Source: a marine gamma proteobacterium HTCC2148 (GTDB lineage: Bacteria > Pseudomonadota > Gammaproteobacteria > Pseudomonadales > Halieaceae). Taken from it: a stretch of DNA of 64,000 bases. This document shows positions 25,073-55,486 of the stretch, one piece after another. Positions within the stretch are counted from its first letter, which is position 1. The number at the start of each line of letters is the position of its first letter. Location: contig DS999232.1 in the NCBI GenBank assembly GCA_000156295.1, forward strand, positions 1-64,000, in the 5' to 3' direction. A model generated the notes under the pieces. The model saw nothing but the letters and a program-made list of their open reading frames with translations, was not told where the DNA came from and did not search any database. The translations under genes were made by a program, and so were the position numbers.

Positions 25073-25223
25073 CAGGCACTCCCTATGAAATGAGGATCCA
25101 AGTATAGCCTGCCTGAATTGAGGGTAGTCTCTTCGCCGGGAGATTATTTTTTTAGCCCTCGCGGTGGGCGAGTGCAAGTCAGCGCTGTTATGCTTTGCCT
25201 GATGTCCTGTCGTGGAGCTTTTC

Positions 25224-54434: not shown

Positions 54435-54501
54435 TGGGTTTTAGGTGGCAGCTTACCCCCGTCTCGCAAAATTGCCTGCAACCGGTGCGTTTGGTAGAAT
54501 T

Positions 54502-54557: not shown

Positions 54558-54584
54558 GGAACTATGTGGTGATTAGCACTCTAA
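54558..54584 (+). promoter_or_regulatory. Sigma-E (RpoE)-like promoter of rpoH
   Basis: GGAACTA at 54558-54564, a 15-base spacer, and TCTAA at 54580-54584 match the sigma-E consensus (GGAACTT, N15-16, TCTAA/TCTGA) with one -35 mismatch. The predicted start point near 54590 is about 40 bases before the rpoH ATG. Enterobacterial rpoH also has a sigma-E promoter. The -10 lies inside the CIRCE operator. Confidence 0.65.
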
Positions 54585-54599
54585 TACAAAGAGTGCTAA
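54573..54599 (+). promoter_or_regulatory. CIRCE element (HrcA operator) upstream of rpoH
   Basis: A perfect match to the CIRCE consensus: TTAGCACTC (54573-54581), a nine-base spacer, and GAGTGCTAA (54591-54599). CIRCE binds the HrcA repressor and normally controls groESL or dnaK operons. Here it ends 32 bases before the rpoH ATG and covers the -10 and start point of the sigma-E-like promoter, so HrcA bound here would block transcription. hrcA is not in the window. Confidence 0.9.
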
Positions 54600-54631
54600 T
54601 ATTGCTGGCCAAAATTTAATGGAGGTTTTTT

Positions 54632-55486
54632 ATGAGTAGTAACCTGCAACCCGTCGATCAGATGGTACCGGGAGCCAACCTTGCCGCCTATGTGCAAGCC
54701 GTTGGCAGTATCCCTGTGCTCAGTCCTGAGCGCGAGCGGGAACTGGCAGAAGATCTCTTTTACAATGACAACCTCACCGCTGCCCGAGAGCTGGTGATGT
54801 CTCACTTGCGTTTTGTCGTCCACATTGCCCGCAGCTACTCTGGCTATGGCCTGGCTGAAGCCGACCTGATTCAGGAAGGCAACGTGGGTTTGATGAAAGC
54901 CATTAAGCGCTTTGATCCGGAGAAGGGCGTTCGGCTGGTCTCTTTTGCCGTCCATTGGATCAAGGCAGAAATGCATGAGTACATTCTGCGTAACTGGCGT
55001 ATTGTCAAAGTGGCGACCACTAAAGCGCAACGCAAACTGTTCTTTAATTTACGCAGCAAGAAGAAGAGCCTGTCGTGGCTCAGCGCTGACGAGGCCAAGG
55101 CTGTCGCTGAGGACCTTGGGGTTGATGTAAAAGAAGTTCACCGCATGGAAGGCCGACTGACTAGCCGTGACCTCGCATACGATATGTCTACTGACAGCGA
55201 TGATGATGACGCTTGGCAAGCACCCCAGTATTACCTGGAAGATCATAGCTCCGACCCCGCCCAGACAGTAGAGGAGGGTGACTGGAAGCAGAACTCGCAG
55301 GCCCAACTGCACAGTGCTTTGGCAGACCTGGATGAACGCAGCCGCAATATTCTGGCACAGCGTTGGCTGGCCGAGGATAAGTCGACCCTGCACGAGCTTG
55401 CCGATCAATACGGTGTCTCGGCAGAGCGTATTCGTCAGTTAGAAGCGAATGCGATGAAAAAGCTAAAGGTCGCCATCGCCGCCTGA
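54632..55486 (+). CDS. rpoH: RNA polymerase sigma factor RpoH (sigma-32)
   Basis: The heat-shock sigma factor. Region 2 includes [39 protein letters not shown] and [17 protein letters not shown]. The RpoH box [15 protein letters not shown] is present (region C), and region 4 has [20 protein letters not shown]. 284 residues, normal. GGAGG lies six bases before the ATG. It follows ftsX after a 197-base gap that holds the promoters and CIRCE. Confidence 0.97.

Follow-up and report, generated by a model that had tools for sequence, protein, structure and literature searches.

A predicted HrcA operator laid over promoter-like elements upstream of rpoH in a marine gammaproteobacterium and its relatives

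The window analysed here, a 64-kb stretch of DNA, carries a perfect CIRCE directly upstream of rpoH, the gene of the heat-shock sigma factor sigma-32. We propose, with a probability of roughly 0.75, that this element is a functional operator through which HrcA would repress rpoH, and that it is laid over a sigma-E-type promoter and over a sigma-70-type extended -10 situated in its right arm. Bacterial heat-shock control is commonly described as either repression by HrcA or activation by sigma-32, two strategies kept apart. If rpoH does bear a conserved HrcA operator, the two would form one circuit in many Gammaproteobacteria, in which chaperonin load would set the amount of sigma-32 and the same promoter would also receive input from the envelope-stress sigma factor; E. 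coli and Pseudomonas, the basis of much of the textbook picture, would then be derived cases.

The CIRCE site and its genomic setting

A motif search of the window found TTAGCACTC-N9-GAGTGCTAA at 54573-54599 with 0 mismatches to CIRCE. The full element reads TTAGCACTC TAATACAAA GAGTGCTAA, with arms and spacer in a 9-9-9 arrangement, and a gap of 32 bases (54600-54631) separates it from the rpoH ATG at 54632 (Table 1). The ORF starting there (54632-55486) scores above the RpoH equivalog cut-off (TIGR02392, 399.2 bits vs 323.1), and the perfect CIRCE directly 5' of rpoH described in an earlier note on this DNA is confirmed both in its letters and in its position. The shuffled window holds a mean of 0.01 CIRCE matches at <=3 mismatches and shuffled upstream regions hold none (0/2,700), and on these figures a chance repeat at rpoH was dropped as an explanation. 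Read by eye, the ORFs 5' of rpoH resemble ftsE and ftsX, and in E. coli K-12 ftsX is likewise found directly upstream of rpoH. The named rpoH loci closest to that of the window belong to Haliea, Halioglobus and Parahaliea, which places the organism within Halieaceae or close to it.

Table 1. Features upstream of and including rpoH, in positions of the window
Feature	Position	Strand	Basis or remark
Possible promoter of sigma-70-like type, 5' of the operator and outside it (TTGCCT-17-TAGAAT, TG present)	54472..54500	+	1 found
GGAACT, proposed sigma-E (RpoE/AlgU)-type -35 of rpoH	54558..54563	+	Nearly fixed distance to CIRCE in relatives
CIRCE operator (predicted HrcA site), perfect 9-9-9 inverted repeat	54573..54599	+	Motif search of window and genome
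TCTAA, proposed sigma-E -10	54580..54584	+	16 nt after GGAACT
TGCTAATAT, proposed extended -10 of a second promoter, of sigma-70 type (TGn plus hexamer TAATAT)	54594..54602	+	Conserved T
GGAGG, rpoH ribosome-binding site	54621..54625	+	Sequence
rpoH, sigma-32, 284 aa	54632..55486	+	TIGR02392, 399.2 bits

The genome (4.33 Mb, 31 contigs) contains one hrcA (PF01628, E 1.4e-63; TIGR00331, 331.8 bits vs a cut-off of 197.2), so that the repressor assumed by the earlier note does have its gene here. It is followed by grpE and a dnaK-like ORF, and a recN-like ORF is divergent from it. Other CIRCE copies, whose possible presence the earlier note had raised, were sought in the whole genome at <=3 mismatches and three CIRCE-like places were obtained in all: rpoH, groES and 25152-25178 of the window. 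The site upstream of groES (groESL; C5:947-973) is the other perfect CIRCE of the genome, and the near-perfect HrcA sites are hence two, groESL and rpoH. The match at 25152-25178 has 3 mismatches and is probably due to chance. At the hrcA-grpE-dnaK genes the same whole-genome search showed no CIRCE at <=3 mismatches.

Upstream of groES the order of elements is TTGACT-N16-TAGAAT, CIRCE and CTTGAA-N15-CCCCAT, with no GGAACT box, and the gap between hrcA and grpE (locus L004 1301-1449) holds CTTGAA-N14-CCCCAT. The first of these resembles a sigma-70 promoter, and the CTTGAA-N15/N14-CCCCAT elements at groES and in the hrcA-grpE gap resemble sigma-32 promoters, the groES one being consensus-like. 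With such a sigma-32-like site placed between hrcA and grpE-dnaK, hrcA itself may be outside the sigma-32 regulon. In 17 genomes, the 170 nt that precede hrcA contain no convincing CTTGAA-N12-16-CCCCAT, the best matches having 2 to 5 mismatches; for three of these genomes (L288, L291 and L292) the hrcA start used was not set on a start codon. A feedback loop from sigma-32 to hrcA was dropped for want of a convincing sigma-32 site upstream of hrcA. Furthermore, rpoE (TIGR02939, 323.7 bits vs 236.15) and rseA, the gene of the anti-sigma factor (RseA_N match), are present in the genome.

Conservation in close relatives and promoter-like elements under the operator

The set of relatives comprised 58 genomes, namely the window's own and 57 relatives, with hrcA found in 42/58 and rpoH in 57/58; three genomes do not enter the counts: G028, whose upstream region is cut by the end of a contig, G036, which gave no rpoH match, and G041, which was not placed automatically. 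When hrcA is present and the region upstream of rpoH readable, CIRCE was found at <=2 mismatches in 41/41 genomes, the window's own included, whereas the hrcA-lacking genomes with a readable upstream region show it in 2/14 (G038, 75% complete, and G052, 96% complete), all conservation counts and Fisher tests ignoring relatedness among genomes. The rpoH CIRCE is perfect in 29 of the 41. The conservation that the earlier note looked for is thus observed, and the putative link between HrcA and sigma-32 supply which it put forward is well supported by sequence, since hrcA is present and the site is conserved in 41/41. Among 80 named rpoH loci, CIRCE at <=1 mismatch occurs in 13/13 loci of the Halieaceae group (L005-L017) and in L082 and L084; the remaining 65 display no CIRCE, the best match having 4 mismatches (Gilvimarinus, L075). 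In one relative (G039), contig C22 carries a second RpoH-like gene (351243-352031, 315.7 bits, just below the cut-off), located ~10 kb from hrcA (340557-341213).

Sigma-E promoters have a GGAACTT-type -35 and a TCtAA/TCtGA-type -10 about 16-17 nt apart, and the window's GGAACT-N16-TCTAA has this layout. The TCTAA begins with the two bases that close the left CIRCE arm and continues into spacer positions 1 to 3, and TGCTAATAT consists of the right CIRCE arm and three further bases, its general form being TGCTAAnnT. The element seen by the earlier note stands, but its reading had missed the candidate sigma-E-type promoter beneath and the possibility that the arms double as -10 elements.

Among the hrcA-bearing genomes of this set, the window's own included, GAAC precedes CIRCE in 40/41, at a distance of 10 nt in 36 of them and of 11 nt in 4. 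TCTAA is kept in 36/41, the -35 to -10 spacing is 16 nt in 36/41 and the third base following CIRCE is T in 41/41; four hrcA-bearing genomes (G015, G018, G040 and G057) have GAAC and no TCTAA. A 17 nt spacing is seen instead in E. coli, as the mode in the class and upstream of rpoE in the window's genome. GGAACT is also found before most of the fetched Pseudomonas rpoH loci, which are without CIRCE. Outside the operator, the one sigma-70-like match (54472-54500; shuffle mean 0.8) is not above shuffle level, may be chance and was set aside. A promoter at this place may supply HrcA-independent transcription of rpoH, and read-through from ftsX could also feed rpoH without HrcA.

Distribution in order, class and phylum, and alternative readings

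The order was scanned with a GGAACT-N9-CIRCE composite that tolerates 3 mismatches, some matches therefore being without GGAACT, and 72/390 genomes from 16 families were matched, compared to 1/390 with the reversed composite as control. hrcA was found in 63 of these 72 genomes and in 96/390 overall, with no hrcA match in the other 9/72, and all of the fetched composite loci (30/30) lie upstream of rpoH. In the class, 268/369 genomes have hrcA and a looser composite matched 106/369. With one count per palindrome and without the genome of the window, the 114 class sites examined fall at rpoH (88, in 88 genomes), groES (18), hrcA (6), groEL (1) and a place without assigned gene (1), in a pattern that holds AACT and TAA around CIRCE, so that both the 88/114 and the spacer letters are enriched for the rpoH type. 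Such an rpoH site was present in 84/268 genomes with hrcA, the window's own counted, vs 5/101 without. These five of the 88 rpoH-site genomes that lack an hrcA match include four that are 62-85% complete and one, G631, that is 98% complete. Together with the 9/72 of the order, they speak against a strict coupling of the rpoH site to hrcA.

A less biased sample was formed by 30 random genomes from the 184 hrcA-bearing class genomes outside the scan-positive set. rpoH was matched in 27/30, and CIRCE at <=3 mismatches was found upstream of it in 24/27 (no mismatch in 7, one in 8, two in 5 and three in 4), the other 3/27 showing no CIRCE at rpoH at this threshold, which likewise argues against a strict coupling. 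The controls gave no CIRCE in 2,700 shuffles nor in 320 neighbouring-gene stretches. Were the sample representative, roughly 90% of the Gammaproteobacteria with hrcA would, by our estimate, carry an rpoH CIRCE. The rpoH CIRCE, which could have been taken for a peculiarity of the window's genome, is hence widespread in the class. A strict composite applied to the phylum matched 32/269 genomes; of the 30 loci examined, 23 belong to groES and 7 to rpoH. The rpoH loci, the window's own included, all come from the class, and with this one pattern 17/17 loci outside the class are at groES. Together, these scans suggest that an HrcA site on rpoH is common in a large bacterial class and that the standard laboratory species are without it.

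The bases around CIRCE differ between rpoH and other genes. GAAC lies within 22 nt of CIRCE in 77/88 class rpoH sites (at offset 11 in 66/88) vs 1/25 groES/groEL/hrcA sites retrieved by the same pattern, and a T stands at +3 after CIRCE in 84/88 vs 7/25. Spacer position 1 is T and position 3 is A in 76/88 and 77/88 class rpoH sites, compared to 10/25 and 10/25 at the other sites. In the random sample, GAAC is nearby in 17/24 sites, and spacer 1 T, spacer 3 A and +3 T occur in 14/24, 18/24 and 22/24 respectively. The full spacer TAA is less frequent, with 39/88 class rpoH sites and 5/24 sampled ones. These extra bases, promoter-like in their sequence, mark the rpoH CIRCE sites and not those of groES or hrcA. 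From the counts in relatives, class and sample, the -35, the last -10 base and the extended -10 appear widespread, and the complete TCTAA typical of the window's relatives.

GAAC is missing from 11/88 class sites, 7/24 sampled sites, L015-L017 and G011, and since these sites still carry CIRCE, an rpoH gene can have the element without having GAAC. Spacer A3 occurs in 71/77 class sites with GAAC vs 6/11 without, and in 15/17 vs 3/7 in the random sample; 4 of the 11 class sites that lack GAAC nevertheless have the spacer TAA. Two Luminiphilus loci and that of a Halieaceae MAG (L015-L017), as well as G011 (L140), keep CIRCE with both GGAACT and the spacer TAA absent, as if a sigma-E promoter had been lost and HrcA control kept.

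The first alternative shares the operator with our reading. In it, HrcA represses rpoH through CIRCE, but the promoter beneath would be the sigma-70 extended -10 only, GGAACT being unused by sigma-E. The right-arm extended -10 is indeed the most constant extra feature, as judged from the +3 T in class and sample, and it is kept when GAAC is absent (10/11 class sites, L015-L017 and G011), the full sigma-E -10 TCTAA being constant only near the window's family. On the other hand, GAAC is near-fixed in position, at offset 11 in most class sites and at offset 10 in 36/41 relatives, and spacer A3, with which the proposed sigma-E -10 ends, tracks it in both data sets. We therefore regard a sigma-70 promoter standing alone as unlikely.

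Much less probable is a repeat that is not chiefly a DNA operator but works in the mRNA, as a 5' UTR hairpin or thermosensor-like element. An inverted repeat near the start codon could fold if transcription starts upstream, for example at 54472-54500, but the starts predicted for the sigma-E promoter and the extended -10 fall inside or after the repeat and would give transcripts without the complete hairpin. Moreover, the RNA from 54590 onward, the only one folded, is no more structured than its shuffled versions (z 0.87), and a leader RNA hairpin was dropped on this result. The exact CIRCE letters are also conserved and co-occur with hrcA.

The CIRCE-lacking named loci that have a -35 box, 57 in number and largely from Pseudomonas, keep the right-arm AGTGCT and have most left-arm positions eroded. 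Least probable of all is that the CIRCE likeness is a mere by-product of overlapping promoters (TCTAA and TGCTAnnnT) with HrcA inactive here: AGTGCT (repeat positions 20-25) is kept in 79-91% of these 57 loci, a range inflated by an alignment register fitted to the right arm, but at left-arm positions 1, 3, 4, 6 and 7 no more than 16-19% of them agree with CIRCE, whereas these positions are intact or nearly so in hrcA genomes, and promoters alone leave both the left arm and the 41/41 vs 2/14 split by hrcA unexplained.

Proposed circuit and comparison with known systems

We infer HrcA binding, repression, sigma-E and sigma-70 promoter use and GroE titration in this organism, and the preferred reading, an HrcA operator over two promoters, would then work as follows. 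With GroE free, HrcA would sit on CIRCE and cover both the sigma-E -10 and the extended -10 of the second promoter, so that RNA polymerase would be blocked at both by occlusion and little sigma-32 would be made. Once GroE is taken up by unfolded protein, HrcA would become less active and rpoH would be derepressed; derepression combined with active sigma-E would give a high output, merging cytoplasmic and envelope stress at one site. A chaperone-titration input to sigma-32, together with a second input from envelope stress, is thus plausible. Given that grpE has a sigma-32-like promoter and is without a near-perfect CIRCE, the rpoH site is the likely route of HrcA to DnaK-GrpE and to the rest of the sigma-32 regulon, and HrcA probably reaches DnaK-GrpE via rpoH.

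A broader proposal is held more tentatively, and we would give it somewhat less than even odds. According to it, rpoH would be a standard HrcA target in the Gammaproteobacteria that keep HrcA, the operator being built from two overlapping -10 elements (sigma-E and sigma-70) so that one repressor gates envelope-stress and housekeeping input, and loss of hrcA would have left behind the rpoH promoters now seen in Pseudomonas and, perhaps, in E. coli. The pattern in the CIRCE-lacking loci fits operator loss with the promoter kept, and also the reverse order of events.

In E. coli, the P3 promoter of rpoH is RpoE-dependent (PMC8103513), and an AlgU-dependent rpoH promoter is described for Pseudomonas (PMC4585239). 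Upstream of the E. coli gene we read TGAACT-N17-TCTGA, and both promoters share the GAACT-(16/17)-TC layout of the window. The region before rpoH shows no CIRCE in E. coli K-12, inspected by eye, or in the fetched Pseudomonas loci, and E. coli as control genome gave no hrcA match. The E. coli K-12 upstream region (L303) has CAGTG at the right-arm distance from GAACT, with four bases fitting GAGTG, which is possibly an operator relic, or chance.

HrcA and CIRCE at groESL, of the B. subtilis type and represented here by C5:947-973, share the operator and the repressor family with the rpoH case, but there the target is a chaperonin and groES has no GGAACT box, whereas the target in the window is a sigma factor gene. 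In Helicobacter pylori, HrcA operators overlap core promoter elements and GroE raises the affinity of HrcA for DNA (PMC6032397), and the occlusion and GroE-titration model proposed here draws on these descriptions; the H. pylori targets given in that source are chaperone operons shared with HspR, unlike rpoH in the window.

The closest precedent is Geobacter sulfurreducens, a delta-proteobacterium for which Rodionov et al. 2004 (PMC545781) list a perfect CIRCE at -51 relative to the start of rpoH, along with CIRCE at groESL and hrcA-grpE-dnaK-dnaJ. The earlier note's observation of CIRCE on rpoH holds, but the idea is not unprecedented. A full-text search of the literature, judged by title and start of abstract, returned no report of CIRCE at rpoH besides PMC545781, and others may exist. 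In contrast to the window, the G. sulfurreducens rpoH site is listed in that source without a promoter or a sigma-E-type overlap. The prediction of an rpoH CIRCE thus dates back to 2004, and what appears to be new is the widespread, promoter-embedded form of the site.
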